Below are positions 4,112-63,438 of a stretch of 64,000 nucleotides of DNA, piece after piece. Position 1 is the first letter of the stretch. Each line of letters starts with the position of its first letter. Source of the stretch: Salinibacterium sp. UTAS2018. Lineage in GTDB: Bacteria; Actinomycetota; Actinomycetes; Actinomycetales; Microbacteriaceae. The notes beneath the pieces are model-generated. The model saw only the letters and a list, made by a program, of their open reading frames with translations. It searched no databases and had not been told where the DNA came from. The stretch spans positions 248,001 through 312,000 of the forward strand of contig NZ_CP035375.1 in assembly GCF_004118935.1 (NCBI RefSeq). The letters run 5' to 3'. The position numbers were made by a program, and so were the translations under genes.

Positions 4112-5099
4112 AACTCCTCTGACGGGCATCGATCTCGTACTCGCTGATCTGGATGGCGTGATCTACCGCGGCGCTGACGCGATTCCTCATGCCGTTGAGA
4201 GTATGAACGCGATTGAGGGCGCCCAGGTCGCTTACATCACGAACAATGCCTCGCGCACCGATGCATCCGTCGCTGAGCACTTGAGCGAGCTCGGTCTTAC
4301 CGTGGTTCCGCACGACGTTGTGACGTCGCCGCAAGCCGCCATGGGGTTGCTCCGTGACCTCGTACCCGCCGGCTCGACCATCATGGTTGTTGGTGGCGAC
4401 GGTCTCACTGACGAGCTTGAGAAGTCGGGTTTTGTCGTCACGCGATCAGCGGATGACTCGCCGGCGGCTGTTGTGCAGGGATTCGCTCCGCATGTGGGCT
4501 GGAAAGATCTCGCCGAAGCGTCGTTCGCTCTCAAGGGTGGCGACGACGGCATCCCGTGGATCGCGACCAACACTGACTGGACGATTCCGCAGGCTCGGGG
4601 CACCGCTCCCGGCAACGGAACGCTCGTCTCGGCCGTGCACTCTGCGGTGGGCCGTTTGCCAATCGTTGCTGGCAAGCCAGAGGTCGCTATTTTTGAAGAA
4701 GCATTCCGCCGTTACGAGTCGCGTTCGGCGCTCATGATTGGCGACCGCCTTGACACCGATATTCTCGGAGCCAATCGTGCCGGCATCCCGTCGCTGCTCG
4801 TGCTGACCGGAATCGACCAGGCCAAGCAAGTGCTGGCGTGCATTCCGGATGAGCGTCCGACGATGATCGTCGACGACCTGCGCGGACTGCTTGAGCCCTA
4901 CCCTGAAACTGTGGTCACGCACGACGGCGCTGCCGTAGTGACGACCGTCGGAACCGCGACTGTGCGCCTTGAGGCTCAGCGTTTGACAGTAACGGAGACC
5001 GGAACAGCGATCGACCGCTTGCGTGCCGGCGCTGCAGCAATTTGGAACTCGGGGAGCGCCATCTACGCCCTCGAAGTGCCCGCGGAGCTATATTCGTGA
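4101..5099 (+). CDS. HAD-superfamily phosphatase (NagD/phosphoglycolate-phosphatase-like)
   Basis: A 332-aa HAD hydrolase of subfamily IIA. The first motif, LVLADLDGVIYRG at about residues 11-23, gives the nucleophile Asp and the general acid/base Asp. ITNNASRT near residue 46 is the Thr/Ser motif, and GDRLDTDILGANRAG near residue 214 is the metal-binding motif. Members act on small phosphate esters (p-nitrophenylphosphate, glycerol phosphate, nucleotide monophosphates); the true substrate cannot be read from sequence. A C-terminal 60-residue extension follows the HAD core. The ATG at 4101 gives the normal N-terminus just before the DxD motif; upstream in-frame codons lie inside the previous gene. 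It is coupled to neighbours on both sides. Confidence 0.9.
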   Translation: MSSKTPLTGIDLVLADLDGVIYRGADAIPHAVESMNAIEGAQVAYITNNASRTDASVAEHLSELGLTVVPHDVVTSPQAAMGLLRDLVPAGSTIMVVGGDGLTDELEKSGFVVTRSADDSPAAVVQGFAPHVGWKDLAEASFALKGGDDGIPWIATNTDWTIPQARGTAPGNGTLVSAVHSAVGRLPIVAGKPEVAIFEEAFRRYESRSALMIGDRLDTDILGANRAGIPSLLVLTGIDQAKQVLACIPDERPTMIVDDLRGLLEPYPETVVTHDGAAVVTTVGTATVRLEAQRLTVTETGTAIDRLRAGAAAIWNSGSAIYALEVPAELYS

Positions 5100-5254
5100 G
5101 CATGGATGACGAATCGCCCGTTGACGGATTGATGTCACGGCTGAGCCTGATCGAGGATCAGCCGCTCGAAAGCCGCGCCGCCGCGTTCACTCAGATTCAT
5201 GACCAGTTACAGCAGCAGCTCGAGGGCAAGGACGCGTTCTCGCGCAATGGCTAG
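5096..5254 (+). CDS. Small acidic helical protein, unknown function
   Basis: A 52-aa ORF starting at GTG 5096 (GTGA overlap with the HAD stop; GGAG at 5084-5087). ATG 5102 is the alternative. The sequence is VSMDDESPVDGLMSRLSLIE followed by a helix with an LxxQLQQQLEG pattern. A short ORF of this type between the HAD phosphatase and tlyA is common in Microbacteriaceae, and the tight overlaps (8 nt with tlyA) support translation. No function is known. Confidence 0.7.
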   Translation: MSMDDESPVDGLMSRLSLIEDQPLESRAAAFTQIHDQLQQQLEGKDAFSRNG

Positions 5255-8855: not shown

Positions 8856-11226
<2,371 letters not shown>

Positions 11227-24005: not shown

Positions 24006-24079
24006 CGGGCTGTAGCGCAGCTTGGTAGCGCACCTGACTGGGGGTCAGGGGGTCGCAGGTTCAAATCCTGTCAGCCCGA
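24006..24079 (+). tRNA. tRNA-Pro (anticodon GGG)
   Basis: A complete cloverleaf: acceptor CGGGCTG pairs with CAGCCCG, the anticodon arm is CCTGA-CTGGGGG-TCAGG giving anticodon GGG, and the T-arm contains GGTTCAAATCC. CCA is not encoded. It forms the left junction of the integrated element: the integrase lies 196 nt downstream, and the left side carries a duplicated 5' half. Confidence 0.95.
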
Positions 24080-24083
24080 CGGA

Positions 24084-24275: not shown

Positions 24276-25508
24276 TCACAGTCCGCGTCCGGTGCCTTGC
24301 CGTGGCCGTCCTGAAGTGTTCGGGCGGGTGTCTCTGCTGAGGAAGGCGTTGGCTTGTTCTGCGGCGGATGCGAGGTGGCGGTCATCGGGGTGAAGGTAGC
24401 CGCGAGTGGTCTCGATCGAGGCGTGTCCGAGGATCTCTTGGAGGACGTGGAGGGGAACTCCGGCGTCGGCGAGCCAGGTGGCACCGGTGTGTCGGAGGCC
24501 GTGTCGGGTGAGGTTGGGCAGGCCGAGGTCAGCAACGACCAGGTCCCAGCTGGTGGCGTCGCGAACGGTGGCTGTCGTGAGGAAGCCGCCACGCGGACCG
24601 ACGAGTAGTGGCGCTTCCGGCTGCTTGAACGCGCAGAGTCGTGTCAGGACCGGCCGGAGTGGGTCGAGAATCGGCACGCGACGCTCTTTGCGGCTTTTGG
24701 TCGGCTTAGTGATGAGGCCGCCCCTGCCGGGGAAGACCTGTCTTCGGATGATGACGAGGTTTTTGTTGAAGTCCACGTCGCCAACTTGAAGTCCGGAGAC
24801 TTCTGAAGAGCGTGCTGCCAGCAGAGCTGCGAGCATCACGAAGTCTGAATAGGACTGATGGACGGCGCCGCAGGCGGAGGCGAGCTGGTTCAGTTTCTGC
24901 AGGTCAGGGATCGCGTGCGCGCGCGGGGCAGCATCTTCGGCGGGTTGGGTTCGGAAGGCGTTTCGGTGGAGACTCCGCTTCGCTCGGTGCTTGGCGGGGT
25001 TGATTGTGATCAGGCCATCGCGAACGGCTTCGTCGAGCACCCGCACGAGTGGCGCGATGGTGTTCTTGATCGTCGATGCGCCGTATTGCTTCTCCCAGTC
25101 ATCGATCGTGCGGTCGATCATTCCCGCGGTGATTTGCGCGACGGGCAGATGGCCGAGCGCCGGAAGCACGCGTAGCCGAAGACCGTAGCGGTAGTTGTCT
25201 CCGGTGGAGGTCATATCGAGGCCGCGTGCCCATCGATCGCCGATCGAGGTGAAGAACTCCAGGAGCGTCATGGAGACGTCCATTCCCTTGACCGAAGAAT
25301 TCCGGAGCCTTTCGAAGAATGCCCGTGCGGTTGCCTCGTCCTTCACAATCTCGGTACGGATCACGCGCTGCTTGGTGAGCGGATCGGTCCAGCGTGCCCG
25401 CGCTCGAATTCCGTAGGAACGTCGTTCCATGTCGGTGGAGATCCTCACCCCGATCGGGGGCACCGGACGGGGTGAGGACTCTGGCATCGGCTCAGCTGGG
25501 CGAGCCAT
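24276..25508 (-). CDS. Tyrosine-recombinase integrase of the element
   Basis: A 410-aa phage/ICE-type integrase. Residues 25-75 form a possible arm-binding domain, 80-170 the core-binding domain and 200-390 the catalytic domain, with R233 (ARSSEVSGL), H336-x-x-R339 (TRHGLRHTG), H362 (LGHASIETT) and nucleophile Y371. It is transcribed toward tRNA-Pro(GGG), as expected for an element integrated there. Its start overlaps the HTH gene upstream by 17 nt, so the two are co-translated. Confidence 0.93.
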   Translation of the reverse strand: MARPAEPMPESSPRPVPPIGVRISTDMERRSYGIRARARWTDPLTKQRVIRTEIVKDEATARAFFERLRNSSVKGMDVSMTLLEFFTSIGDRWARGLDMTSTGDNYRYGLRLRVLPALGHLPVAQITAGMIDRTIDDWEKQYGASTIKNTIAPLVRVLDEAVRDGLITINPAKHRAKRSLHRNAFRTQPAEDAAPRAHAIPDLQKLNQLASACGAVHQSYSDFVMLAALLAARSSEVSGLQVGDVDFNKNLVIIRRQVFPGRGGLITKPTKSRKERRVPILDPLRPVLTRLCAFKQPEAPLLVGPRGGFLTTATVRDATSWDLVVADLGLPNLTRHGLRHTGATWLADAGVPLHVLQEILGHASIETTRGYLHPDDRHLASAAEQANAFLSRDTRPNTSGRPRQGTGRGL

Positions 25509-26832: not shown

Positions 26833-28614
26833 TCATGGCGTCGCAGGGCGTTCCAAGAGCGATTCAACCGCCGCACGATCTGCTTTGAGCTGTTCACCGT
26901 CGGAGCGCTTGGGCCAGGGATGGAGGTCAGTGATGATCGGTGGCGCCGACCGGAGCAAGATGACCCCGGTGCCAAACGGCAACGTACGAATGCGGTCGGG
27001 CGGCAGGATCGGTACGCGACGGATGGAACGCTGGTTGGAGCGCGAGCCATGGTCCCCGAGAGTGATGGAGTCGGTGAACTCGTCTCGTTCGCCGATCAGT
27101 GTCGAGAGGTCTTGGAGATCGCGTGAGTTCGAGGCGCCGCCAAGGATAATCTTTGCGATACTGGCGTCCCAGATCGCTGCCGCTTTGTGCTCTGACCATT
27201 TGTCCCGCGCCTGGGCAAGGGATTGAAGCACCGGCATCGTTGTGATGCCGGTGCCGCCACCTTCCGCCATGAGTGTGGGCAGCGAGGGTAGTGGCGCGAG
27301 GTTTCCGATTTCGTCGAGCGCAAAAAGCAGCGGTGGGTCGAGCCGTGCGCCGGGTGATCGAGCGGCCATTCGGCGGGCGGTCTCGACAAGGTCTTCGACG
27401 AATGCTGCGACGAGAGCTGCACTGTTCCCGGCCCCAACGCCGGTCGCCAGAAGATACAGCGTGCCACGGTCGCGGATGAAGCTCTCGGGATCGAACTGCT
27501 CGCCTTCTTCAGGGCTGACGGCATCAAGCACTCTGGGGTCGGCCAGCGCTGACAGTGCGAGCGAAACGCCCTGCCAGATGCTGTCGCGTGTGCGCGGGTC
27601 GGCGTCGAGCGTTGCCTCCAGCGAATCTGCCCAGCCTGTGGCAGCCAACGGTGAGCCCGTCAGGATGGCGACCGCCTCTGCTGCCGCCGATGGGTCGAGA
27701 GTCCACCGGAACAGCTCAGCCGGACTTCGATGATCGAGCGCGGCCGCGTGAAGGAGCACCTGCAGAGCGATGCGTGTCTTTCCCTCCCAGAACCCTCCGC
27801 CCTCGACGCCGCCAGCGGATAGCTCGGTGGCCGCTGCAAGACCAGTGGCTCGGATCATTGCGGTCAACGGGTCCTCGCAGCCCCGAATAGGCGACCACCG
27901 CAGCCCAGCGGGGACCCCTTCAGCAAGATGCTGTGGATCGAATACAGCGACGGGACCGACCCGCTCACGTACCCGCATTGTTGCCGTCAAATTGTCGGGC
28001 CGGGTCGACGTCGTCACCACTGAACCCGGCGCGTCGAGAATCGCTGGGATCACAATGTGCAAACCCTTACCCGAACGCGGCGGACCGATGAGAAGGATCG
28101 AGTCTTCGACGCTGGCCCATACCTGCTTGCCGTGCGAGCGCCCGAGCAGGTAGCCCACGTCCTCGGGCTTTGGCTGATCCAGCGAAGGGCGCAGCGTCAC
28201 AGCCCGGCGCAGGAGCGCCTTCGTGGATGCACTGGTCACCACCTCGTGACTGCTGGCAGTTCCCGCGAGGCGCCGTGGATCGGCATCGACGTTGTGCGAG
28301 TGCCCACGCCAGAGTACCCAAGCCCACCCGATAGCGCTGCCGAGCATGAGGAGAAGCAGTATTGCAATTGACCAGTAGAGGATCGTGTTTAGCCCTTGCG
28401 CCTCTAACACCTCGGCCGGGTGTGCCGGATTGAACAGCAAGGCAACTCCGCCTGCAATTCCCACTTGAGGCTGGCCAGAGCCAGAGAGGAATGCCGCAAC
28501 GGCCCCCGCAACTCGCAAGACGACGGAGACCCCGAAGACTGCGATCAACGCGATCATTAGGAAGTTGGTCAGCTCATCGCCGAAGCCCCGACCCTCACCG
28601 TGTGGGGTGCTCAC
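26833..28614 (-). CDS. VirD4/TraG-like type IV coupling protein
   Basis: A 593-aa conjugation ATPase that brings the DNA substrate to the transfer channel. Two N-terminal membrane segments lie at about 17-43 and 78-102. Walker A is LLIGPPRSGKGLH (177-184 core), and Walker B is LLFALDEIGNLAPLPSLPTLM, followed by the family segment GGGTGITTMPVLQSLAQARDKW. GTG 28614 overlaps the upstream stop (GTGA). The membrane position and NTP-loop context make it a T4CP rather than an FtsK translocase. Confidence 0.9.
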   Translation of the reverse strand: MSTPHGEGRGFGDELTNFLMIALIAVFGVSVVLRVAGAVAAFLSGSGQPQVGIAGGVALLFNPAHPAEVLEAQGLNTILYWSIAILLLLMLGSAIGWAWVLWRGHSHNVDADPRRLAGTASSHEVVTSASTKALLRRAVTLRPSLDQPKPEDVGYLLGRSHGKQVWASVEDSILLIGPPRSGKGLHIVIPAILDAPGSVVTTSTRPDNLTATMRVRERVGPVAVFDPQHLAEGVPAGLRWSPIRGCEDPLTAMIRATGLAAATELSAGGVEGGGFWEGKTRIALQVLLHAAALDHRSPAELFRWTLDPSAAAEAVAILTGSPLAATGWADSLEATLDADPRTRDSIWQGVSLALSALADPRVLDAVSPEEGEQFDPESFIRDRGTLYLLATGVGAGNSAALVAAFVEDLVETARRMAARSPGARLDPPLLFALDEIGNLAPLPSLPTLMAEGGGTGITTMPVLQSLAQARDKWSEHKAAAIWDASIAKIILGGASNSRDLQDLSTLIGERDEFTDSITLGDHGSRSNQRSIRRVPILPPDRIRTLPFGTGVILLRSAPPIITDLHPWPKRSDGEQLKADRAAVESLLERPATP

Positions 28615-29204
28615 GATGGAAAAGTTTTGGTGACGATGACGCCGGAGACGCGTCCGATGAGCAATATCTCCAATCGGTGGTCGACGAGTTGGCTCACATC
28701 GATGACCGCACGGGCGCTCCCGCCAGCAGATCTTTGAGCACTGGAGAGTGACATCGCGACCGTGACATCTTCGCCGGGGATAAAACCGGACCCGGTGACC
28801 TCGATGAGCTGAGGCGTGGGGCCGTGCCGCGCTCGCCGCGTCGTGCTGAGCGACTGAACGTCGGCGATGGCTTGTTCTCGCCGCACCGCATGCAAGATGT
28901 CGGTGAACACGGAGCCATCGAACTCGTGCACTTCGACTCGGACGGTGTGCGTGCGGTGGTCGGAGATTGCGTCGAGAAGATCTCCAAAGAGCGCCCGATT
29001 CCAAGAGGCATCCGGCGTTGAAGGCGGGAAGTCGCGCCCGTTGTAGATGACGCGCATCACGCCGCGCTCGTCGACATTGATGCGGGCAAGTGGAAGGTCG
29101 ACGGGTGGTTCGGATGGAGTCTCTCCGGCCTTGCGATTGATCATGCCAGGCAGGTGCGCGACACCCATCCCGTTCGGTCTTACGTCAGTTTGGCACTCGT
29201 TCAC
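28611..29204 (-). CDS. Conserved-element protein, unknown function
   Basis: A 197-aa soluble protein translated just ahead of the coupling protein (GTGA overlap). A central RVEVHEFDGSVFTDIL segment and a beta-rich C-terminus (VTGSGFIPGEDVTVAMSLSS, DHRLEILLIGRVSGVIVTKTF) are visible. No catalytic motif is recognised. Its place suggests a transfer accessory role. The start may be ATG 29204 or the internal ATG near 29168. Confidence 0.65.
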   Translation of the reverse strand: MNECQTDVRPNGMGVAHLPGMINRKAGETPSEPPVDLPLARINVDERGVMRVIYNGRDFPPSTPDASWNRALFGDLLDAISDHRTHTVRVEVHEFDGSVFTDILHAVRREQAIADVQSLSTTRRARHGPTPQLIEVTGSGFIPGEDVTVAMSLSSAQRSAGGSARAVIDVSQLVDHRLEILLIGRVSGVIVTKTFPS

Positions 29205-29289: not shown

Positions 29290-29718
29290 ATGTCTGAGTA
29301 CGAAGAGAACTCGACCGACGCGCTGCGCAGAGCGCTTCAAGGGTCTAGCGATCCCGTGGCTGTAACGCTCACGATCTCGCGCACAACCGCTGAGAATGTA
29401 CTGCGGCTCCTTGAGGCAGAGCACGGCGCCGGTGCCGTGGTCGTTCCTGTCAAAGAGCTCTACACAACTACAGAAGCCTCGACCATGCTCGGCATCTCTC
29501 GTGCGACGCTGATGAAACTGATTGATTCAGGCAACATCGAAGCGGTGAAAGTCGGTACACATAGCCGCATACCTGCTGATGAACTGGTTGCCTTTCAGCG
29601 TGCTCGCCAGGTGAGCCAGGCGCGGGCGGCAGAACTACTCACCGAGTTCTCCTCTCGTTCGGCCGCCAGTTTCCATAGCAACGTTACTTTCCGCGCGAGC
29701 GGTGAAGGGGAGGACTGA
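29290..29718 (+). CDS. Antitoxin-like HTH protein (excisionase family)
   Basis: A 142-aa protein with a MerR/excisionase-type helix-turn-helix: [24 protein letters not shown] followed by [21 protein letters not shown] (residues 56-102). The N-terminus ([17 protein letters not shown]) is helical. Actinobacterial antitoxins paired with PIN toxins have this same layout, and the next gene does carry a PIN domain. GGAGG lies 4 nt before the ATG. A role as DNA-binding repressor and possible PIN antagonist is inferred. Confidence 0.8.
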
Positions 29719-29719
29719 A

Positions 29720-32377
29720 GTGGCGAATCCGCGGGTCCACGAGATTGCCTACGAGCTTGGCGTTGACGCGAGTGTCGCGCTCACGAGGCTCAAGGAAATG
29801 GGTGAGTTTGTGAAGGGGCCGTCTTCATCGATCAGTCCACCTGTGGCGCGAAGGCTGCGCATGGTTCTGGCTGCTGAGGGCAGCGCGTCAGCTGCTCCAG
29901 CGCCACGCACGCCAAAAGCTCCCGGGGCAGGACCTGCGCCAACAGTGCGCCCGCCGATCGGCGCAACTCCGACTCTGCGCTCCGTAGATCCCCTCGGCGC
30001 AACCGTCCTGGCGCCCGAAGACTTCGTCGCGACTGGCCATCGGCTCTTCATCGATACGAACGTCTTCATGGACACCGATACTGAACGCTCAGCAGGTCTT
30101 AAGAAGCTTTTCGAGCGTTGCAAGGATGTAGCCATCGGAAACGGCAACGGGATCGTCGTCCCGTCCAAGGTGGTCGATGAGCTTTATAAGCAAAGCAGTC
30201 TGGATGTCACTCTGTTCACTGAGGAGCGTGCGGCCGCAGTGCATCGTGCTGGCCAGTGGCTCACGGCGTTGGAGTCTGGCGCCGCCCACGGGCTCATCCG
30301 CAAGGATCTTGGCGACGGATCGAACCGTTACGCAGACGACTTGTTCGTCGATCTCTTCACCCATTTCAGCGACCGATACGACATGTGCTTGTTGACCAAC
30401 GACATCACGCTGCGCCTACGCATCAGGTTGCTCGCGTCCGAAGCGAAGCATCAGCTTGTGGCGGGCACCATAGGTGCTGATGGCCGGATCGCAGTGGACA
30501 CCGATCAGGACTTGTACGAACGCGCCGCTAGGAAACTCGCCCGGATCACCCGGCACGTCGAGGAGGGGCTCGCAAAACCCAAGGACTACGCCGAAGTGGA
30601 GATGCTCGCGCCCCTGTTGAGGAATTTCAGACACACATTCGGTGTCGCCGATACCGCCCCGAAGCTTGGTGACCGGCGCGACACGAGGGTGGCGACGGGT
30701 TCCGCTCCACAACAAGCGGCCGGGGCCTTCAAGCGTGTCATGACGCTCAAGCCGAAGGACCAGTTGCTTGGAGCTGCTTTCATCCCCAGCGCCGGTGACA
30801 GAGTAATTGCAGAGTCACCACACTCCCGAACCGCGCTCGTCTTGGGTGACCTGCTCGGCGAGGGCGGCGAGGGGTCTGTCTATGCCGTCCAGGACGACCA
30901 AAGCCAGGTCGTCAAGATCTTCGACAAGGACCATCGAACCGAACATCGAAAGGCGAAGCTCGATCTCCTAATCTCCCACGAACTTGAATTGCAAGGCATC
31001 GGGTTCCCGACGGACATTATCACGAACAGCGACGGCGACTTCGTAGGATACGCAATGCCGCGGGCCTCCGGGAAAGAGCTCCAGGCGACAATCATGCGTC
31101 CAGCTCGATTCAGACGGGTGTACCCAACCTGGACCAAAGCGGATCTCGTGGATGTCTGTGTTTCTTTTCTGGAGAAGGTCGCCTACCTTCACTCGTTGAA
31201 CATCCTGCTCGGAGACATCAACCCGAAGAATCTCATGGTCGATGAGCACAAGAACGTCTGGATCATTGACGCCGACTCGTGGCAAGTAGAGGGGTATCCC
31301 TGCCCCGTGGGGACGGCCATGTTTACGGCATCCTCAATCACGGGAGACTACGCAGAGGCACTGCGCACCGTCGAAGAGGAACGGTTCGCGGTCGCAACGA
31401 TGCTCTTCATGATTCTCATCACGGGCCAGTTCCCTTACGCACGTGCTGGAGCAGATGGCGGCGACTTCGTGGCCTTGATCAAGGAAGGAAAGTTCGCATT
31501 TCAGTTCCAGGGAGCGTCCGACCAGGACCAGCCCGAGGGGAACTGGAAGTTCATGTGGAGCCACCTCCCTTTTCAGGTCAAGCGATTGTTCTGGAACACG
31601 TTCCAGCGTCAGGGTGGTTCACGCTACGATCGGCGCCCAACAGCGATTGAGTGGCTCGCAGCATTTCACGACTACCGCAACTTTTTTGGTGGCAACGACG
31701 ACTTCGACCTGATGTCGAACGACGTTTACCCGTTCCGATTCCGTGCGTTCCGTCCGGACACACCTATCCGCGACTGCCAGCAGTGTCAGCGGCCGAACGC
31801 AATCGTCGGTAGGTGGGACGAAGAGAGCCACTCATACTACGAACCCAGCGTTTGCTATGACTGCAACCAGAGTAAATCGAGATGCGCGGACTGCGGCAAG
31901 CCGAAACCTGCCGACGCGCTCAAGGACGGCCGTTGCTACGACTGCAACCGCACACGCAACTACGCGACGTGCGATACCTGCAAAAGGGAAGTTGCCCGGA
32001 CCTACCTAGTCAACGGCCAATGCTCAAACTGTCAGCCAGTTCCGTGTAAGGACTGCAAGACGCTGACCGCGAAAACCGAACTCACATATGGGCGCTGCGC
32101 TGCGTGCGTCAAGAAGGCCGCGGAGCTCAACCCCAAGAGACTCTGCATCGAGTGTCACCAGCCGTTCATCACTTTCGATCATGAGCGGTGGTTCATCTCC
32201 AAAGGGCTCGATATCCCGAAGTCTCACCAAGCTGCGACAAAGAAGCCTTGTCCGCCGCGACAGACTGCCTCGCGCCCATCGCGCACTACCACGAGGTCTG
32301 CGACCGCTCCCACGACCTCATCTGCAGCGTCCAAGACGAGCCTCTGGCAGCGCTTCGTCGCGTGGCTGAATTCTTGA
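29720..32377 (+). CDS. IF2N-PIN-protein kinase-zinc ribbon fusion protein
   Basis: An 885-aa multidomain protein. Residues 1-50 resemble the IF2 N-terminal domain ([20 protein letters not shown]). Residues about 108-245 are a PIN-type nuclease with acidic residues D112 (FIDTNVFMD), E154, D206/D207 and D228 (LTNDITLR). Residues about 372-660 are a kinase domain: glycine loop [11 protein letters not shown] from G380, K399 (VVKIF), catalytic D499/N504 (GDINPKN) and D517 in IIDADSW, where DFG becomes DAD as in YegI-like kinases. Residues about 683-830 hold many CxxC pairs, a zinc-ribbon array. The tail is Ser/Thr-rich. GTG 29720 follows GGGGAGG by 7 nt. It is co-transcribed with VWA and PP2C genes. 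The biological role is unknown; defence or stress signalling with RNA cleavage is inferred. Confidence 0.85.
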
Positions 32378-32416
32378 TCAACACGAAAAATCCAACATCA
32401 ACAGGAAGGTAAACCC

Positions 32417-33097
32417 ATGGCACTCAATATTGGCGCCGACGACCTCGTCGAGAACCCAACTCCGCGTGTCCCCGTAGCTCTCTGCCTCGACACGAGCGGA
32501 TCAATGATGGGAGACAAAATTCGCGAACTCGTCCAGGGCGTCAACCTGTTCTATGACGCGATTGACGAAGATGACGATGCTCACGATGCCGCCGAGGTAA
32601 GCATTGTCGAGTTCAACTCTGCTGCAAATCTCATTCAGGAGTTCGCCAGCATCGAGCGGCTCAGCCGGATTGATGCCATCGACGCTACGGGAGGTACGGC
32701 GCTTGGAGAGGGAGTAAATCTTGCACTAGACACGCTTGAGAAGCGCAAATCTACATACTCCAATGCGGGCGTCCTGTACTACCAGCCCTGGCTTGTTCTG
32801 ATGACCGACGGCCAGCCGAACGGGCGTTCCGACGAGCTCGAACGCGCAGTCCAGCGCGTAACCGAACTCGTCGCCCAGAAGAAGCTCACCGTCTTCCCGA
32901 TCGGAATCGGCGCGGACGCCGACATGGATGTGCTGGCACGATTCAGCCCGAACCGACCGCCGCTCCGACTCCGAGGGCTTAGCTTCAAAGAGTTCTTCGA
33001 GTGGCTGTCAAAGTCTGTTTCTCGCGTCTCGCGGTCCACGCCGGGTGACACGGTCAAGCTTGACCTTGAGGGCTTGGCAGGCTGGGCGGAGTTGTAA
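32417..33097 (+). CDS. von Willebrand factor A protein (TerY/YegL-like)
   Basis: A 226-aa stand-alone VWA domain. The full metal-ion-dependent adhesion site is present: D25-x-S27-x-S29 (CLDTSGSM), T93 (ATGGTALGEG) and D130 (LMTDGQPNGRS). This fits the TerY/YegL group, whose genes accompany a kinase and a PP2C phosphatase; members probably act as scaffold or binding partner. It lies 39 nt after the kinase gene and abuts the phosphatase gene with no gap. Confidence 0.92.
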   Translation: MALNIGADDLVENPTPRVPVALCLDTSGSMMGDKIRELVQGVNLFYDAIDEDDDAHDAAEVSIVEFNSAANLIQEFASIERLSRIDAIDATGGTALGEGVNLALDTLEKRKSTYSNAGVLYYQPWLVLMTDGQPNGRSDELERAVQRVTELVAQKKLTVFPIGIGADADMDVLARFSPNRPPLRLRGLSFKEFFEWLSKSVSRVSRSTPGDTVKLDLEGLAGWAEL

Positions 33098-33853
33098 ATG
33101 TTCAACGAGTTCCATCATCAAGCTCGTGGTCGAGGACACGCGCTCGACGGCACGCGGGGACAGGATCGGACGCAGTATCTTTCGCGGGGCGGCGTCCAAG
33201 CGATCTGTCTCGCTGACGGTGCCGGGTCTGCCTCGCACTCCGAATTTGGTGCGCAAGCAGTGGTAGATGAAGGATGCGTCGCGCTGGTCGAGCAGTTCGA
33301 CCGACTTGTGGCCAGCACCGATGGCGGACAAGTCAAGATCGAGCTTCTAGCGCGGCTCCTCGCCAAGGTCACCACGGTCGCCGAGCGTCACGGCCATGAC
33401 GTGCACGACTTCGCCTCCACCTTTCTCGGCGTTGCGGTTTCTGGTGATCAGTTCCTCGGCGCGCATGTGGGCGATGGGGTTATTGGATACCTCAAGGACG
33501 GGGAACTGCATGTCATCTCCGCTCCAGACAACAGCGAGTTCGCCAATCAAACGACCTTCGTGACCTCTTCGGGAGCCGCAGTGTCGATGCGACTCTTTCG
33601 CGGCTCGCTGCAAGGGGTGACCGGGTTCATCCTTATGAGTGACGGCGCTGGGGAGAGCCTGTTCAACGCTCGCACGCGTCAGCTGGCGGACGCGTGTACC
33701 AAGATCATCGTGGCCGTTGGGAATACGCCCGCAAGGCTGAGCAAGAACTCGAAGCCGAAGAAGCAGTTACGGAAGCTCGTAGACGTTAGAGTGCGCAACG
33801 CGACCAAGGATGACTGTGCCATAGGCGTCCTGGGCCGACCGGAACTCGTATAA
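33098..33853 (+). CDS. PP2C-family protein phosphatase (YegK/PphC-like)
   Basis: A 251-aa metal-dependent Ser/Thr phosphatase of the PP2C_2 type. Metal ligands appear in order: D40 (LADGAGSASHSEFGA), D126 (HVGDGVIGYL), D182 (LMSDGAGESLF) and D238/D239 (TKDDCAIGVL). It would reverse phosphorylation by the kinase two genes upstream. ATG follows the VWA stop directly. The gene ends 28 nt before the convergent ATPase gene. Confidence 0.92.
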   Translation: MFNEFHHQARGRGHALDGTRGQDRTQYLSRGGVQAICLADGAGSASHSEFGAQAVVDEGCVALVEQFDRLVASTDGGQVKIELLARLLAKVTTVAERHGHDVHDFASTFLGVAVSGDQFLGAHVGDGVIGYLKDGELHVISAPDNSEFANQTTFVTSSGAAVSMRLFRGSLQGVTGFILMSDGAGESLFNARTRQLADACTKIIVAVGNTPARLSKNSKPKKQLRKLVDVRVRNATKDDCAIGVLGRPELV

Positions 33854-33881: not shown

Positions 33882-35390
33882 TCAATCCTCGTGGAGAGCA
33901 CGGCGACCTCCAATCATGCGGCTAGTGGTATCGAAGAGTTCCAGCTCCCCGGGGTGGAGCTGGTGCTGGCAAACGAAGGAACGATCCTTGATTCGCCAGA
34001 GCCCCTGTCCGACACCGAGACCCGGCAGCAGCTTCTGTTCGGTCCCTGTCAGGCCGAGCGCTCTTGCAGTGGCGCCGAGCTGATCGGATTCCTGCCGATA
34101 GATGATTCGCGTTTCGGCGTTGGCGAGAAGGCTGCTTGCCAGGGCTCGCATCGCGGAGCCCTGGTCGCCGACATTCTCCAAGTCGGTCAGCTTGTGGAAG
34201 ATCAGCATGTTCGCGATCCCGTAGTGGCGAGCGAGCCGCCAGTGCGCATCCATACGGCGCAACAACGCCGGATGCGACATGAGGCGCCATGCCTCATCGT
34301 AGATGCACCAACGCTGGCCACCGTTTGGGTCGAGCAGGGCGGATTCCATCCACGCCGACGAACAGGTCATGAGCACTGAGGTCAGAGTCGAGTTCTCTGT
34401 CACTCTCGATAGGTCAAGGGAGATCATCGGTAGCGTCGGATCGAATCTCACCGTCGACGGGCCGTCGAAGAGCCCGGCGAGGTCACCGGCGACAAGGCGC
34501 CGCAGGGCATGCCCGACGAGACGCCCGTCTTCGGCGAGGCGTCCGTTCGGATCTGCCTGTGCTGTCGGGGCAAGGATGTGTTCAACGATCATTGGAAGGA
34601 TCGGTACGTCGTTGCTGCGCACGACTTCGGTCAGGGCAGTGTCAATCGCCGTGTGCTCCAAAGGCGTGAGCGGTCGAGTGAGGACTGTTTCGGCGAGCGC
34701 GCCGATCAGGTCGCGTCGTCGTGAGCTGACCGTGGATGCCCAGCTTTCATCGCTCATTCCTGCCGGTCGATAGCCTTCGTCCAGCGGATTCAGCCGAGCG
34801 GCAAGCCCATGACCGAGCACGATCGCCCGACCGCCCACAGCCTCAGCGACCGCAGTGTGCTCGCCCTTGGGGTCGCCGGGGACGTAGACGCGACGACCGA
34901 ACGGAATGGATCGCGTGTAGAGGCTCTTGGCCAAGCTGGATTTTCCGGATCCGACAATGCCCGCGAGCACGACATTCGGCGCGGTGATGATGCCGCGCGC
35001 GTAGAGCACCCATGGGTCATAGACGAAGGAGCCGCCGGAGTACAGGTCTTGGCCGACGAAGACTCCGTCGGATCCGAGTCCACCTTCGGCCAGGAATGGA
35101 TACGCGCCAGCAAGAGTTGCCGACGTGTCTTGATGCCGTGGCAGGCGAAGTCGTCCGGGTGAACGCAGCTGCGCTGGTCCTGGTTCGCCTGCTGGCGCAA
35201 TGTAGGTGGTTGCCCGACGCTCAGCCAGATCGGCGGCGCACTTTGCGCGGGATGCCTGATGCTCCGCTCTCGTCTGTTCCGCTTGCAACTTCGAGGCAGC
35301 CTGCCTGCGCTGCTTACGCACTCTCCGCTTTTCGGATGCTGGAGCGACGAGAACCGAAGTATGCAAGCGCTCAGCATCATCGTGGCTCAT
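33882..35390 (-). CDS. VirB4/TraC-like conjugation ATPase
   Basis: A 502-aa P-loop ATPase. After a charged coiled-coil N-terminus (about 18-60), the nucleotide-binding core has Walker A GIVGSGKSSLAKS (144-156) and Walker B RWCIYDEAWRLM near 350. The C-terminal LPGLGVGQGLWRIKDRSFVCQHQLHP segment is typical of VirB4-type ATPases in actinobacterial elements. It powers pilus or channel assembly. ATGA overlap with the upstream gene. Confidence 0.88.
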   Translation of the reverse strand: MSHDDAERLHTSVLVAPASEKRRVRKQRRQAASKLQAEQTRAEHQASRAKCAADLAERRATTYIAPAGEPGPAQLRSPGRLRLPRHQDTSATLAGAYPFLAEGGLGSDGVFVGQDLYSGGSFVYDPWVLYARGIITAPNVVLAGIVGSGKSSLAKSLYTRSIPFGRRVYVPGDPKGEHTAVAEAVGGRAIVLGHGLAARLNPLDEGYRPAGMSDESWASTVSSRRRDLIGALAETVLTRPLTPLEHTAIDTALTEVVRSNDVPILPMIVEHILAPTAQADPNGRLAEDGRLVGHALRRLVAGDLAGLFDGPSTVRFDPTLPMISLDLSRVTENSTLTSVLMTCSSAWMESALLDPNGGQRWCIYDEAWRLMSHPALLRRMDAHWRLARHYGIANMLIFHKLTDLENVGDQGSAMRALASSLLANAETRIIYRQESDQLGATARALGLTGTEQKLLPGLGVGQGLWRIKDRSFVCQHQLHPGELELFDTTSRMIGGRRALHED

Positions 35391-36435: not shown

Positions 36436-36858
36436 CTAGAGTTCTATGACTTTCCCACTCTTTAGAAACTCCTGGACGACCAGACTCGGGCTCTTCAGAT
36501 CCTTGAACGGACTTGTCTGAGCCAGCTCCGTGATCGCGGCAAGTAGCTCAGATACCTGCGCACCCGAGTCTTCCTGATCCGATACGAGAGCGGAGTCCAG
36601 GTTGTCGAACAAGCGACGGAAGTTCTCACGCCGTTCGTCGAAGGTTCGGTCTAGCGCTGTGAGTAAAAAATCTCGCTGCACGTGGATGATTTCGAGTTGG
36701 CTCTGTTCCCAAGCGCGAATTTCCTCGCGACGAGTCTTCTCCTGGGCAATAACCTGGACCCACTCGGTTGCCGAGGAGATAACAAGGTTGAAAGTGTCCA
36801 CCACCATCGCTGGACCAGGTTTGGGTAACATCGCTGCCACAGCTTTTGATGCGCTCAT
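36436..36858 (-). CDS. Helical coiled-coil protein paired with a membrane protein
   Basis: A 140-aa protein, mostly helical. A middle stretch rich in E, R and Q (QEKTRREEIRAWEQSQLEIIHVQRDFLLTALDRTFDERRENFRRLF) should form a coiled coil. It overlaps the upstream gene by 4 nt (ATGA), so the two products probably form a complex. No family recognised. It belongs to a cargo block between transfer genes. Confidence 0.7.
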   Translation of the reverse strand: MSASKAVAAMLPKPGPAMVVDTFNLVISSATEWVQVIAQEKTRREEIRAWEQSQLEIIHVQRDFLLTALDRTFDERRENFRRLFDNLDSALVSDQEDSGAQVSELLAAITELAQTSPFKDLKSPSLVVQEFLKSGKVIEL

Positions 36859-37853
36859 GCGTACTTCCTCAGTATTTTGATCGATGCCTCGGTGAGTTCC
36901 CCGGAGCTGGGGTCGAGGACGGGCGTGTTTAGGATCTCCTTGACCGCAGTCACCAACTGGAAAGCACGCAAGAATTCACTTGCGTGCTGATCCGAGTCAA
37001 AATCGACTGATTCCAACGTGACGAGTGCAGCGCTGGCGCGATCGGCCAGCCTTCCTAGGAGGTCACGCAGTTCCTCAATGCGTTCCTGGACTGCCCCGAG
37101 AAGTTCTTGCGCAAGCGCGATCCGCTCAACCTCAAGAGCGACCAAGGCAGCGAATTTTCTGGACTTTGTCTTTGCCTTGGACCCGACAATGCCCATGGTA
37201 AATCCGCCGATAAGGAGCACTGGAACGGCCGCGGTGAGGCTGAGAACGGCGGCTCCAGCTGCCATTCCACCTCCACCAGCGGCGATCGTGCCGCCACCAA
37301 TCGCGGCCAAGGTAGCGTTTTGAGCTGCAACACCGCTTAGCGACGCGATGGCAGTGCCAGTGCCCGCCGACGCAAATGTCGAGACACCCCAGAGGGCAGC
37401 AGCTGGTGCAGCAGCCCCAGCGCCAACCGCACTCACCACGCCGGTGACGCCTGTGGTGATGTTCTGAGCGCCCGACACGTACTTCGGGATATTTGGAATG
37501 CGAATGCGCACGCCGTCAACCTTCTTGAAGTTGAGTCGCTTCACCCGTGCTTCGTTTCGCTCTAGCCAGTCAGCGAATCGGCCAATATTTTCTCGATGGA
37601 CCATGATCTGGAATTCGCCGTAGCTACGCGCAGCTGCTTCCGTGTCGAGGCGAACAATCTCACAGTCAGCCAAAGCAGAGTCGAGCTTTTTAGCAGCTTC
37701 CTTTCGCACACCCCGACCCTGGGACAGGTCGACGGCGCCCTTGGCTGCCGCAGCGATGGCTGCCGCAGCACCGACACCGAGTGGTACCAGAACCTTCGGC
37801 CCCGCCTTAAGGAGTCTGGGAGCGCCTTTCAGTGCTAGCTCGACGAATCCCAT
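36855..37853 (-). CDS. Glycine-zipper membrane protein, possible pore-former
   Basis: A 332-aa protein. A short N-terminal hydrophobic stretch (VLVPLGVGAAAAIAAAAKG, 22-40) is followed by a soluble helical part (50-130). Next comes a long Gly/Ala-rich hydrophobic region (about 135-225: GVVSAVGAGAAAPAAALWG, AAIGGGTIAAGGGGMAAGAA, AAVPVLLIGGFTMGIVG), then a basic KAKTKSRK stop and a helical C-terminus. This resembles glycine-zipper membrane-inserting proteins; a toxin or effector role is only inferred. ATG 37853 with GGAG upstream, or GTG 37856. Confidence 0.7.
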   Translation of the reverse strand: MGFVELALKGAPRLLKAGPKVLVPLGVGAAAAIAAAAKGAVDLSQGRGVRKEAAKKLDSALADCEIVRLDTEAAARSYGEFQIMVHRENIGRFADWLERNEARVKRLNFKKVDGVRIRIPNIPKYVSGAQNITTGVTGVVSAVGAGAAAPAAALWGVSTFASAGTGTAIASLSGVAAQNATLAAIGGGTIAAGGGGMAAGAAVLSLTAAVPVLLIGGFTMGIVGSKAKTKSRKFAALVALEVERIALAQELLGAVQERIEELRDLLGRLADRASAALVTLESVDFDSDQHASEFLRAFQLVTAVKEILNTPVLDPSSGELTEASIKILRKYA

Positions 37854-38125
37854 CACGCTCCTTATTTTTGAGTCTGCTCAATGCTACTGGGCACGTTGGT
37901 GCCCCAGAGTTGCCGGAGAATTGCGTCGCCGGGCACGGTAGATCGAACCATGGCGGCTCTTCGCAATCGAGGGTGTAGTTCGCGGGCTCCTCTGCTTGCG
38001 CTTGCTCCCTCAAGCTAGAGGTGAGGTCCGACATCGAGCGCTACGTCCGAAGCAGCTCAGCCAGCCTGAACGCCGCGATGGGGCCGCAGTGAAGAAGGCA
38101 CGGTCCGCAATGGGAGGATTGGAGC

Positions 38126-54105: not shown

Positions 54106-54306
54106 GTGACTGAGCCATGGATGTCTGCCGACGACATTGCGACGTATCTTGGCGTCACCAAGGACACCGTCTACACCTGGATCGCCGAGAAGGGGATGCC
54201 CGCCCACAAGATCGGCCGTCTGTGGAAGTTCCAGGCGAGCGAGGTCGACGATTGGGTTAGGGGCGGCAGCGCGGTCGGAAACGTGCGTGACGGGGCGGAG
54301 GGCTAA
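54106..54306 (+). CDS. Small HTH protein of the restriction island
   Basis: A 66-aa excisionase/MerR-type helix-turn-helix protein: WMSADDIATYLGVTKDTVYTWI and KIGRLWKFQASEVDDWV. GTG 54106 has GGAGGAGA upstream. It is the first gene of the plus-strand restriction operon and is likely its transcriptional regulator. A small CCGAT-ATC-ATCGG inverted repeat at 54056-54068 could be its site. Confidence 0.8.
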   Translation: MTEPWMSADDIATYLGVTKDTVYTWIAEKGMPAHKIGRLWKFQASEVDDWVRGGSAVGNVRDGAEG

Positions 54307-54310
54307 CAGC

Positions 54311-57300
54311 TTGCGCATCATCAATAACGTCACCGACCTCCTTGGAGATGATCTCAAGGCCGAGATCACCCCGGGTTCCAAAGTTCGTATCGCCGCATCG
54401 ACGTTCTCGATCTTCGCATTCGAGGCCCTCCGTAAGGAGCTGGAGCAGGTTTCAGAGCTGGAGTTTATTTTCACGACGCCAGCGTTCGTTACGGAGAAGA
54501 TGACGGACAAGCTCCGCAAGGAGCGCCGCGAATTCTTCATCCCAGCTGGTCATGCTGAGTCGAGCCTGTCTGGCTCGGAGTTTGAGATTAGGCTGCGTAA
54601 CCAGCTCACCCAACGCGCGGTCGCGAAGGAATGTGCGGACTGGGTGCGCCGCAAGGTCACGTTCCGATCGAACGCAACCAGCAATCCAATGCAGCAGTTC
54701 GCGGTCGTTGGTGACAGCGCTGCTTACACATCCCTGCAGGGCTTCACCACGGCGGACCTTGGTTACGAGCGGGGCAACGCTGTGTCAAACATGGTGCAAC
54801 GCGTTGACGAAGCTCCGATGACCTCCCAATACCTCCAGCTTTTTGACCAAATTTGGCACAATCCCGACCAGCTCGACGATGTTACCCAGACGGTCCATGA
54901 CCACATCGCCAGCGTGTATGCGGAGAACGCTCCAGCGCGCATCTACTTCCTCGTGCTGTACAACCTATTTGCCGAATTCCTCGACGACATCAACGAAGAT
55001 GTCCTGCCGAATGACCGCACCGGATACCAAGACACGAAGGTCTGGCAGAGTCTCTACAATTTCCAGCGCGATGCAGCGACAGGGATCATCAACAAGCTGG
55101 AGACCTACAACGGCTGCATCCTCGCTGACAGTGTCGGTCTGGGTAAGACCTTCACTGCATTGGCAGTAATCAAGTACTACGAGCTGCGCAACAAATCGGT
55201 GCTCGTGCTTGCGCCGAAGAAACTCTCCGAGAACTGGACAAACTACAACGCGAATCTCACGACGAATATTTTTGCCGCGGATCGGTTCAACTACGACGTC
55301 CTCGCGCATACCGACCTGTCACGGACCCGCGGTGAGTCGCTCGGCCTGAGGCTGGATCGGATCAACTGGGGCAACTACGACTTGGTCGTCATCGATGAGT
55401 CGCACAACTTCCGTAACGCCGACTATGCCGAGGAGAAGGAGTCGCGCTATCAGCGGCTCATGCGGCAGGTCATTCGAGAAGGAGTCAAGACCAAGGTGCT
55501 GATGCTCTCGGCAACCCCGGTAAATAATCGCTTCAACGACCTGAAGAATCAGCTCCAACTCGCCTACGAGGGAGAATCCGAAAATCTCGCTCAGCATCTG
55601 AACCTCTCCACTACCGTCGAGAAAGTCTTCAGCGACGCGCAGCGGGTCTTTAACGAGTGGTCCAAACTCGACACTCAAGATCGCACCACGGATCGTATCC
55701 TCAAGATGCTCGATTTCGACTTCTTCGAACTGCTTGACGCGGTGACGATCGCTCGCTCACGCAAGCACATCCAGGCGTTCTACGACACCACCGAGATCGG
55801 CGCCTTCCCTGAACGCCGCACACCACTTTCTATCCGCGAACCACTCACCGACCTCGCGGACGTTCCGGGTTTCAACGAAATCTTCGAGCAGCTCCAAGCG
55901 CTCACCCTTGCCGTATATACACCGCTCGCATATGTGTTTCCGAGCCGACGCGCCAAATATGAAGACTTGTACAACGTCACAGCTGGTAGCGCCCGCTCCA
56001 ACCTTGGCCAAGCTGGGCGCGAGCAAGGTCTCAAGAAGCTCATGACTGTGAACCTTCTCAAGCGACTGGAGAGTTCGGTCGAAGCCTTCCGCCTGACCGT
56101 AAGCAAGATCGAGGAGTCAGTGGACCGCACCCTGCGGCGCCTCGATTCTCACGCAGGAGCGCTCGCTGATCTGAGCGCTGATCTCACCGGGCTTGACTTC
56201 GACCTCGATGATGAAGACGACGCAAACGTCGAAGCCATCTCGTTCGGGGAGAAGATCAAGATCGACCTCGATGACCTAGACATCGAGTCCTGGCAGCGGG
56301 ATCTATGGAACGACCGCGAAACCCTGCGAGAGTTGCTTGACGAGATGCGCAAGGTTACTCCGACCCACGACTTGAAACTCGAGAGAATCAAGCAACTCAT
56401 CGCCAACAAGGTGGCCGATCCGATAAACCCCGGCAACCGTAAGGTGCTGGTCTTCTCTGCCTTCGCCGACACCGCGAACTACCTCTACCGTGAACTCGCT
56501 CCTGTGCTCGCCAATGCGGGGCTGGAGACGGCGGTCATTACCGGCGGCAGCCACGGCGCCAAAGCCACTCTCGGCACCGGGTTCGACTTCCAGCAGGTCA
56601 TGGCCATGTTCTCGCCCAAGTCGAAGCAACGCCACCTCACCATGCCTAATGAGACTCGGGAGTTGGACGTCCTTATCGGCACCGATGTCATCAGTGAGGG
56701 GCAAAACCTCCAGGACTGCGACTTTCTCATCAACTACGACATCCACTGGAACCCGGTTCGCATCATCCAGCGGTTTGGGCGTATCGACCGCATCGGCTCC
56801 ACCAACGCTCAGATACAGCTGGTCAACTTCTGGCCCGATATTTCGCTCGACGAGTACATCAACCTCAAAGAGCGCGTCGAGAACCGCATGGTTATCGCTG
56901 ACCTTGCAAGCACGGCCGACGATAACGTGCTCACCCTGGAAAACTCCGATGCAGCGTTCCGCAAAGAACAGCTCCGTAAGCTCCAGGACGAAGTCATCGA
57001 ACTTGAGGACGTGCGCACCGGCGTCTCGATCACCGACCTCGGACTCAACGATTTTCGGATGGACCTGCTTGGTTACATCAAGGAAAACGGAGACCTCGCT
57101 GCCGTTCCCAAGGGCCTGCACGCCGTCGTTCCTGCCGACCCCGCGAAGGGCCTCAAGCCGGGCGTCATCTTTGCGCTGCGCAGCGTGAACGCCGACGATG
57201 CTCAGCTCACTGGAAAGAGCGGCAATCGTGGTAACCGGCTCCACCCGCACTATCTCGTCTACCTGGATGACCAAGGCAATGTCATCGCCGACCACACCGA

Positions 57301-57622
57301 GGCTAAACACCTACTCGACCTGCTCCGCGCCGGATGCCGACCCTACAGCGAGCCTGTCCCTGAGGTCGTACACGCGTTCAACGCTGCTACGGGTGAAGGT
57401 GCGCAGATGAGCAAGTACTCCGAGCTTTTGACCGACGCGATCCACTCGATGATCGACGTTACAGAGGAACGCGACATCGACAGCCTCTTCACTGGCGGCC
57501 AAACTACCGCGCTGACACAGTCCATTGCTGGCCTCGATGACTTCGAACTGACCGCATTCGTCGCCATCGTGGAGCCCGCCACTTCGCACTCTGAGCCAGC
57601 CGACGGGGGAACCGATGGTTGA
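54311..57622 (+). CDS. SNF2-type helicase with N-terminal PLD-like domain
   Basis: A 1103-aa helicase. The first 200 residues resemble a degenerate phospholipase-D-like fold (AASTFSIFAFEALRKELEQ; GDSAAYTSLQGFTTADLGYERGN), with no intact HxK. Superfamily 2 motifs follow: DSVGLGKTFTA near 273, VVIDESHNF near 361, LMLSATPVNN, and the C-terminal LIGTDVISEGQNLQDCDFLIN and IIQRFGRIDRIGS. Genes of this type accompany type III-like methylase/helicase pairs. TTG 54311 has GGAGGG 8 nt upstream. Confidence 0.85.
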   Translation: MRIINNVTDLLGDDLKAEITPGSKVRIAASTFSIFAFEALRKELEQVSELEFIFTTPAFVTEKMTDKLRKERREFFIPAGHAESSLSGSEFEIRLRNQLTQRAVAKECADWVRRKVTFRSNATSNPMQQFAVVGDSAAYTSLQGFTTADLGYERGNAVSNMVQRVDEAPMTSQYLQLFDQIWHNPDQLDDVTQTVHDHIASVYAENAPARIYFLVLYNLFAEFLDDINEDVLPNDRTGYQDTKVWQSLYNFQRDAATGIINKLETYNGCILADSVGLGKTFTALAVIKYYELRNKSVLVLAPKKLSENWTNYNANLTTNIFAADRFNYDVLAHTDLSRTRGESLGLRLDRINWGNYDLVVIDESHNFRNADYAEEKESRYQRLMRQVIREGVKTKVLMLSATPVNNRFNDLKNQLQLAYEGESENLAQHLNLSTTVEKVFSDAQRVFNEWSKLDTQDRTTDRILKMLDFDFFELLDAVTIARSRKHIQAFYDTTEIGAFPERRTPLSIREPLTDLADVPGFNEIFEQLQALTLAVYTPLAYVFPSRRAKYEDLYNVTAGSARSNLGQAGREQGLKKLMTVNLLKRLESSVEAFRLTVSKIEESVDRTLRRLDSHAGALADLSADLTGLDFDLDDEDDANVEAISFGEKIKIDLDDLDIESWQRDLWNDRETLRELLDEMRKVTPTHDLKLERIKQLIANKVADPINPGNRKVLVFSAFADTANYLYRELAPVLANAGLETAVITGGSHGAKATLGTGFDFQQVMAMFSPKSKQRHLTMPNETRELDVLIGTDVISEGQNLQDCDFLINYDIHWNPVRIIQRFGRIDRIGSTNAQIQLVNFWPDISLDEYINLKERVENRMVIADLASTADDNVLTLENSDAAFRKEQLRKLQDEVIELEDVRTGVSITDLGLNDFRMDLLGYIKENGDLAAVPKGLHAVVPADPAKGLKPGVIFALRSVNADDAQLTGKSGNRGNRLHPHYLVYLDDQGNVIADHTEAKHLLDLLRAGCRPYSEPVPEVVHAFNAATGEGAQMSKYSELLTDAIHSMIDVTEERDIDSLFTGGQTTALTQSIAGLDDFELTAFVAIVEPATSHSEPADGGTDG

Positions 57623-58280
57623 TTTGCTGTACAGCTGGCCTGCCGCTGCGAAGTTCGGCAGCCGTGTGCCTAAGGAGAAGTTCTACGCGCACGGCAGTGT
57701 GAGCACTGCGGTGCGCGAGAAGTTTGTGTCTGAGGTCCAGCGAATCACCTGGGCCTACAAGCTTGCTGAATCCACCATCAACCTCCCCGGTAGTGCGGCC
57801 GTGCCCGAGATTCAGATCTTTCATATCGACACCAAGACTGGCGACGTCGCCGACCAGGTGCTGTCTGCGATCGACAAGGCGATTCAATTCCCGATCATCT
57901 TCGAGGTCACAAGAACAACGGCAGGGGAACCACAAGTTCGGATGGCCGCGGCACATAAACTGCTTAGCCCAGGCGCTCCGAAACTCAGCACCTACTACTC
58001 GACTAGTTGGCTCTCTGCTGACGCAGAGCGACAGTCCCTCCCTACCGCAATCCGCCTGCCCACTCTCTACGCAGCGATCCTGGAACCTTTGATGCCAGTG
58101 ACGGTGCGCCAGGGCGAGGAAATGTCAGAGGTTGCCGACAGGCTGGCAACAGTGCGGAAACTCGAACGCGAGATCACCGCCTTGGAGCGCAAACTCCATA
58201 CTGAGCCGCAGCTCAACCGCAAGATCGAGCTACGCCGCACCCTCAAGACTAGACAACAAGAACTCGAACAGCAGAGGTAA
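57615..58280 (+). CDS. DUF4391-like protein of the restriction island
   Basis: A 221-aa protein of the DUF4391 kind: VPKEKFYAHGSVSTAVREKFVSEVQRITWAYKL near the N-terminus, a central EIQIFHIDTKTGDVADQVLSAIDKAIQFPIIFEV, and a C-terminal coiled coil (RLATVRKLEREITALERKL). It regularly lies between such helicase and methylase genes; function unknown. Overlaps the helicase by 8 nt and precedes the methyltransferase by 3 nt. Confidence 0.8.
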   Translation: MVDLLYSWPAAAKFGSRVPKEKFYAHGSVSTAVREKFVSEVQRITWAYKLAESTINLPGSAAVPEIQIFHIDTKTGDVADQVLSAIDKAIQFPIIFEVTRTTAGEPQVRMAAAHKLLSPGAPKLSTYYSTSWLSADAERQSLPTAIRLPTLYAAILEPLMPVTVRQGEEMSEVADRLATVRKLEREITALERKLHTEPQLNRKIELRRTLKTRQQELEQQR

Positions 58281-58283
58281 CCC

Positions 58284-60284: not shown

Positions 60285-60289
60285 TCGGG

Positions 60290-63427: not shown

Positions 63428-63438
63428 GAGAAGACTCG

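Follow-up and report, generated by a model that had tools for sequence, protein, structure and literature searches.

TerY-P systems are built from a VWA protein, a PP2C phosphatase and a protein kinase with a zinc ribbon, versions with an OB fold being mentioned as well (PMC11090510), and they shield Pseudomonas aeruginosa PAO1 from phage (PMC10889362). In CoCoNuT systems this triad occurs in association with HEPN nucleases that are predicted to target RNA (PMC11090510), and some GAP1-N2 neighbourhoods hold kinase-zinc ribbon genes together with PP2C and VWA genes, the PIN domains in the accessible part of that paper belonging to other systems and not standing with the kinase-zinc ribbon genes (PMC7159879). 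The kinase YegI is dephosphorylated by a PP2C (PMC13232886), a kinase and an RNase are joined in one chain in IRE1 and RNase L, which act in stress and antiviral responses (PMC3710099), and PIN catalytic residues are needed in two phage-defence systems (PMC13092281). Here we analysed a 64,000-nucleotide stretch of Salinibacterium sp. UTAS2018 (contig NZ_CP035375.1, positions 248,001 to 312,000; the window hereafter), in which four co-directional genes at 29290-33853, encoding a helix-turn-helix (HTH) protein, a PIN-kinase-zinc-ribbon chain, a VWA protein and a PP2C phosphatase, form a cassette that, judged from its sequence, is apparently an undescribed and self-armed branch of this known phage-defence family.

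We consider it, on balance, slightly probable that the cassette is an effector-bearing TerY-P defence branch travelling as cargo of a conjugative element, in which a phosphorylation switch would govern the PIN RNase fused to the kinase. The four genes proposed in the initial annotation were all recovered, with Pfam support for HTH_17, Pkinase, VWA and PP2C_2, and its assignment of three of them to a TerY-P/YegI-type triad is upheld by these families, by homology to E. coli YegI (kinase region only, query residues 445-660, about 28-30% identity, about 1e-13) and by intact VWA and PP2C sites. The TerY-P features present are thus a VWA protein with its metal ion-dependent adhesion site (MIDAS), an adjacent PP2C whose gene starts immediately after the stop codon of the VWA gene, and a Ser/Thr kinase with a C-terminal zinc ribbon. 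Besides the window we compared 12 loci: five from genomes (L003-L007), three from plasmids (L082-L084), one from a viral contig (L127), and L175, L176 and L177, which are longer versions of L091, L174 and L090. The genome loci are the five long matches among 79, the other 74 being confined to the IF2N piece (about residues 1-105). The order PIN-kinase, VWA, PP2C is found in 12/12 of these loci, and in 13/13 with the window included the MIDAS residues D25, S27, S29, T94 and D131 of the VWA protein and residues D23, D40, D126, D182 and D239 of the phosphatase are invariant.

Structure comparison confirmed the PIN fold at residues 108-245 of the kinase chain, the closest folds being the PIN domains of SMG6 and Utp24. 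The window protein scores under the cut-off for Pfam PIN_4 (0.002), which several homologues pass, and the models matched by the chain are PIN_4/PIN_12, not PIN_3. The four acidic residues that had been pointed out at the outset are unvaried in the ungapped rows of 121 aligned proteins (D112 115/115, E154 119/119, D206 119/119, D228 121/121) and are D/E/D/D in 120/120 of a second protein set, obtained by using as query a homologue that shares about 27% identity with the window protein; such constancy across very distant homologues argues for a catalytic role. The kinase residues given in Table 1 are likewise invariant in both sets (121/121 and 120/120), Foldseek on the kinase region returned a kinase fold (3.2e-10), and structural comparison with viral proteins led to kinase-type matches. 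The CxxC array is real too: C686/C689 and C809/C812 are common to both sets, the remaining pairs being gaps in the second, and zf_Tbcl is above the Pfam cut-off in the homologues L083, P0163, P0216 and P0134. The start we adopt, a GTG with GAGGA before it, gives 885 amino acids, the mechanically called open reading frame beginning six codons earlier at 29702. Related kinases carry other extra precomputed domains, a trypsin-like peptidase in P0243 and Sel1 repeats in P0273, P0281, P0288 and others, suggesting further variety.

Because our first two protein searches had the PIN domain in their queries, we also searched with a PIN-free query, the kinase region of the L127 protein. Among the best 120 of its 823 matches PIN_4 was precomputed for 72, and the PIN region could be aligned in about 107/120 (108/117 aligned rows, with one duplicate). 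A count of 116/120 obtained with our own profile was dropped, as it was inflated by N-terminal pieces shorter than 50 residues, of which there were 11 among these 120. Going by these alignments, kinases of this clade usually have a PIN domain, at any rate those among the best matches. Homologues do not routinely lack it or the VWA-PP2C neighbours. L127 itself, labelled as without PIN by our first home-made profile, passes Pfam PIN_4 (8.8e-7). Long matches are sporadic, occurring in 3/100 genomes of the family, 2/149 of the order and 1/118 of the class (overlapping sets, each including the genome itself), and source names place the clade in Actinomycetota, Bacillota, Fusobacteriota, Pseudomonadota and one Prevotella metagenome-assembled genome. 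Its proteins are mostly annotated in generic terms ('protein kinase domain-containing protein', for example), and no match was found when viral contigs were searched with the window protein alone.

Kinases without PIN are arranged differently. In L085-L089, five loci on plasmids that hold distant kinases, the order is VWA, PP2C, kinase, with no PIN; the L089 VWA protein, annotated as hypothetical, was recognised by profile. Of 58 PIN-less loci from plasmids, short genome loci and viral contigs, 17 have the order VWA-PP2C-kinase and 25 PP2C-kinase, the other 16 showing different orders, a kinase alone or no scored kinase. The protein types of the annotated triad match those of TerY-P, but its gene order differs from most PIN-less TerY-P-like loci. 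A FastTree phylogeny of kinase domains separated 33 PIN kinases (the 13 loci, window included, plus 20 chosen database proteins) from 55 PIN-less ones at a support of 0.983 with none misplaced; the window kinase is homologous to the PIN-less TerY-P/YegI-like kinases but lies across this branch of the unrooted tree. A search for TerY-P-like kinases in IMG/VR gave 46 viral-contig loci (L128-L173), many on contigs longer than 100 kb, and 45/46 have a PIN-less kinase frame, often with a PP2C and sometimes a VWA gene upstream; we read these as probable TerY-P-like modules in large phages.

The gene upstream of the PIN-kinase had been annotated as an antitoxin-like HTH gene. Searching with it by tblastn returned nine plasmid records, one being the Paenarthrobacter cassette itself; in seven of the other eight, which were opened, the next gene was a PIN_3 gene in five and not in two. 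Four of these five neighbours are above the Pfam cut-off, and that of L179, below it, is annotated as PIN. The association supports an antitoxin-like character, and homologues of the HTH gene precede the PIN-kinase in 7/12 other loci (L003-L007, L082 and L177). No HTH gene was found before the PIN-kinase in L083, L127, L175 and L176 (in L127 by eye only), and L084 has a different one; the homologue being missing from 5/12 loci, it cannot be an obligatory antitoxin. The upstream gene of L084 (Fusobacterium, 4304-5212) combines an HTH_3 match below cut-off with a PIN-like part whose third acidic residue is seemingly missing, and may be a dedicated partner of the active PIN.

The IF2N-like N-terminus described in the initial annotation stands as a marginal Pfam match (26.2 bits, the cut-off being 25.3), residues 1-50 having a predicted local distance difference test score of 89-97, but it is an optional add-on. 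We rejected it as a core feature, Pfam IF2_N being precomputed for only 9/120 listed homologues; a profile built from nine N-termini of this IF2N-bearing kind matched 11/121 rows (window included). S1 is precomputed for 8/120 listed homologues and stands before the PIN domain in both of the two rescanned. Fewer than 50 residues lie ahead of the PIN aspartate in about 92-95 of 121 rows (bins of 75 + 7 + 6 + 4 + 3) and 50-59 residues in a further four. The second set has at least 70 residues before PIN in 41/120 proteins, IF2N-like by eye, and Pfam IF2_N scanned on such long N-termini matched P0216 (5.5e-9), gave 0.054 for P0163 and no match for P0204. L004 carries two tandem IF2N copies; in L007 a copy that narrowly misses the cut-off follows the kinase. 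The window IF2N is identical at 41/53 positions to the presumed initiation factor 2 (IF-2) of several Microbacteriaceae and at 37/52 to the copy of its own genome, host proteins being called IF-2 from the domain and from open frames mostly of about 900-1000 amino acids; P0013-type IF2N shows 58-70% identity to other actinomycetes (25 best rows). These identities, with the tree placement, suggest that IF2N was captured from host IF-2 more than once; a single origin is also compatible with the data, as it was not rejected in an approximately unbiased test (p 0.126), which compared nine kinase rows with 51 others after three long or partial kinase rows had been left out. Comparison of IF2N with PDB sequences gave weak matches only, IF-2 among them at E 0.84. 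IF2N may have a role at the 30S ribosomal subunit, a topic on which our literature search returned nothing. Two DnaJ-related matches below the Pfam cut-off may point to a chaperone link: P0071 has a DnaJ_C-like segment ahead of its PIN domain, and in L083 (Lysinibacillus) the gene that follows PP2C (9445-10101) matches a DnaJ domain.

As judged from the tRNA-Pro, the integrase and the conjugation genes (Table 1), the host of the cassette is a genetic element resembling an integrative and conjugative element, in agreement with the location first proposed; the cassette lies on the strand opposite to the conjugation genes on either side. Further genes of the element encode an M23 peptidase, an ArdC-like protein, a prim-pol and a ParB-like protein (below cut-off). 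The 3' end of the tRNA-Pro (39 bases, up to three mismatches) occurs once in the genome, giving no second attachment site, a shorter repeat not having been sought. The guanine-cytosine content is 0.58-0.60 at 29-34 kb and 0.61-0.66 at 20-29 kb, a dip that is no strong sign because 36-39 kb is equally low, and a scan for promoters and terminators found none. Homologues of the VirB4-like ATPase lie near the cassette in L003, L004 and L177; relatives of the window's conjugation genes stand on both sides of it in L004 and upstream in L177, in differing arrangements, and a PIN-kinase cassette is also found on a conjugative plasmid. Defence genes accompany some cassettes: Lamassu-type LmuA-LmuC-LmuB genes (L177:11386-14857) begin about 1.3 kb downstream in L177, a TmtA homologue adjoins the cassette in L006, and 4/9 hand-picked flanking proteins, from 2/5 loci, matched PADLOC at 1e-5. 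Elsewhere in the window, genes for an SNF2/HKD helicase and for a Type III methyltransferase and restriction enzyme lie at 54137-64000, where an HEC-05 gene, presumably DUF262-like, also begins. At 36436-37856 two genes lie side by side on the reverse strand (140 and 333 amino acids), with no Pfam family above cut-off.

Table 1. Features of the cassette and of the surrounding element (window positions).
Feature	Position	Strand	Basis
tRNA-Pro (ggg), where the element probably integrated	24006..24080	+	ARAGORN
Tyrosine integrase	24276..25508	-	Pfam Phage_integrase 3.8e-23
TraG/TraD-type coupling protein, left flank	26833..29004	-	Pfam TraG-D_C 4.2e-27
HTH_17 (excisionase/MerR-like) DNA-binding protein, antitoxin-like	29290..29718	+	Pfam HTH_17 2.1e-13
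IF2N-PIN-kinase-zinc-ribbon protein, 885 aa	29720..32377	+	Pfam, alignments, predicted structure
IF2N domain, residues 1-56	29720..29887	+	Pfam IF2_N 7e-6, marginal
PIN nuclease domain, residues ~99-260	30014..30499	+	Conserved D112, E154, D206, D228; structure
Ser/Thr kinase domain, residues ~371-655; K399, D499, N504, D517	30830..31684	+	Pfam Pkinase 2.1e-9
Cysteine-pair (zinc-ribbon) array and final treble-clef-like element	31775..32257	+	Conserved cysteines
TerY-like VWA protein	32417..33097	+	Pfam VWA 3.5e-12
PP2C phosphatase	33098..33853	+	Pfam PP2C_2 2.6e-39
Conjugation ATPase, VirB4-like, right flank, weak match	33882..35390	-	AAA_10 0.015, below cut-off

The mechanism that we propose is that kinase, PP2C and VWA protein would form a reversible phosphorylation switch, and that the RNase governed by it would be the N-terminal PIN domain fused to the kinase. 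Infection or stress would shift the switch, the PIN domain would cleave RNA (tRNA, rRNA or mRNA), bringing growth or the production of phage to a halt, the PP2C resetting the switch and the VWA protein scaffolding the complex. An optional N-terminal IF2N or S1 would probably position the nuclease on the translation machinery, and the HTH protein, where present, would repress the operon and may restrain the PIN domain, a role probably shared by its relatives next to PIN_3 genes. Given the intact kinase, PIN, PP2C and VWA sites, the fusion and the constant linkage, a phospho-controlled RNase appears to be the simplest reading, the enzyme activities, the phospho-gating, the trigger, the RNA target and the defence role being what we infer from the sequences. 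A more far-reaching version, which we hold as possible but doubtful, would make the cassette a bacterial functional counterpart of IRE1/RNase L, a kinase and RNase in one chain reset by a phosphatase of its own, whose IF2N (similar to the IF-2 of the local lineage) or S1 would bring the nuclease to initiating ribosomes so that on infection RNA cleavage directed at the ribosome shuts translation down; alternatively, IF2N may serve as a decoy for phage proteins attacking IF-2.

Several points weigh against a defence branch with a kinase-controlled nuclease. Control of the PIN domain by the kinase is inferred from the fusion and the gene association only, and we know of no activity, toxicity or phage assay for the PIN-kinase clade. 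PADLOC gave weak generic kinase and HTH matches on the four cassette genes, with none for the VWA protein, and STK_OB, which we take to be its model of the TerY-P kinase, reached E 0.041 with a match confined to the kinase region. The other 5/9 flanking proteins, from three loci, had no PADLOC match at 1e-5, and the restriction-modification genes of the window may lie outside the element because its right end was not located. About 13/120 best kinase matches are without the PIN region, the N-terminus of P0265 being of another kind; many of the rest are short and may be truncated.

The cassette might instead be an addiction module of the conjugative element, with the HTH protein as antitoxin, the PIN domain as toxin, kinase, PP2C and VWA protein tuning its release, and loss of the element killing the cell. 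Its position among conjugation genes here and on a conjugative plasmid elsewhere would agree with this, as would the PIN_3 genes directly downstream of the HTH relatives in 5/7 plasmid cases opened, but with the HTH homologue absent from 5/12 loci the PIN domain seems to be tolerated without it, and to our knowledge no known type II toxin resembles an 885-amino-acid multi-domain protein, so that we regard such a module as unlikely. A role in stress-regulated RNA processing, where kinase and PP2C would tune an RNase trimming rRNA or mRNA with no part in phage defence, recalls the kinase Rio1 and the nuclease Nob1 of eukaryotic ribosome maturation (PMC6934326). SMG6 and Utp24 as the closest folds, and IF2N or S1 ahead of PIN in some members, point in that direction; the sporadic, mobile distribution and the defence neighbours in some loci are unlike housekeeping RNases and make this role quite unlikely. 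We find it decidedly improbable that the kinase is directed at a separate target in the host, such as a translation factor, the PIN domain being an RNA-binding or independently regulated partner without phospho-control: TerY-P-like kinases without PIN do exist and the stretch joining PIN to the kinase (residues 314-331) has a poor structure prediction, but the unvarying acidic residues argue for catalysis and PIN is kept with the kinase in most of the best matches.

Placing the effector-bearing TerY-P reading beside the known systems, the literature we searched contained no PIN-kinase-VWA-PP2C module, as the initial annotation had held, although the 2012 TerY-P paper (Anantharaman et al.) and Gao 2020 could mention one; the accessible part of PMC11090510 has no PIN fusion to a TerY-P kinase. 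The cassette resembles the E. coli YegI-PphC(YegK)-YegL set in its homologous kinase, with no match there to the PIN domain or the zinc array, and differs from CoCoNuT Type II/III-A, where the nuclease is separate and other core genes are present, in having the PIN within the kinase chain. As in HTH_17-PIN_3/VapBC-type pairs, a gene for a DNA-binding protein immediately precedes the PIN gene, and the HTH proteins are homologous, but the PIN of the cassette is of the PIN_4/PIN_12 type and inside a kinase, and the HTH gene is absent in part of the clade; as regards type II toxin-antitoxin systems, a PIN with acidic residues is found and a constantly paired antitoxin is not (7/12 loci). With the eukaryotic IRE1/RNase L, whose RNase is a C-terminal KEN/HEPN domain, the fused PIN nuclease allows an analogy only. 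The likeness to TerY-P lies in the same three protein types, the zinc ribbon after the kinase and the mobile and defence context, whereas here the kinase gene comes first, bears an N-terminal PIN nuclease, belongs to a separate kinase clade and often has an HTH gene upstream. The output of TerY-P is merely hypothesised in the accessible part of the literature on it, and this widespread sister clade would name a probable one, RNA cleavage; the IF2N and S1 modules, optional as they are, suggest that it acts at the translation machinery, and the fusion of nuclease to kinase makes the switch testable by point mutants within one protein.

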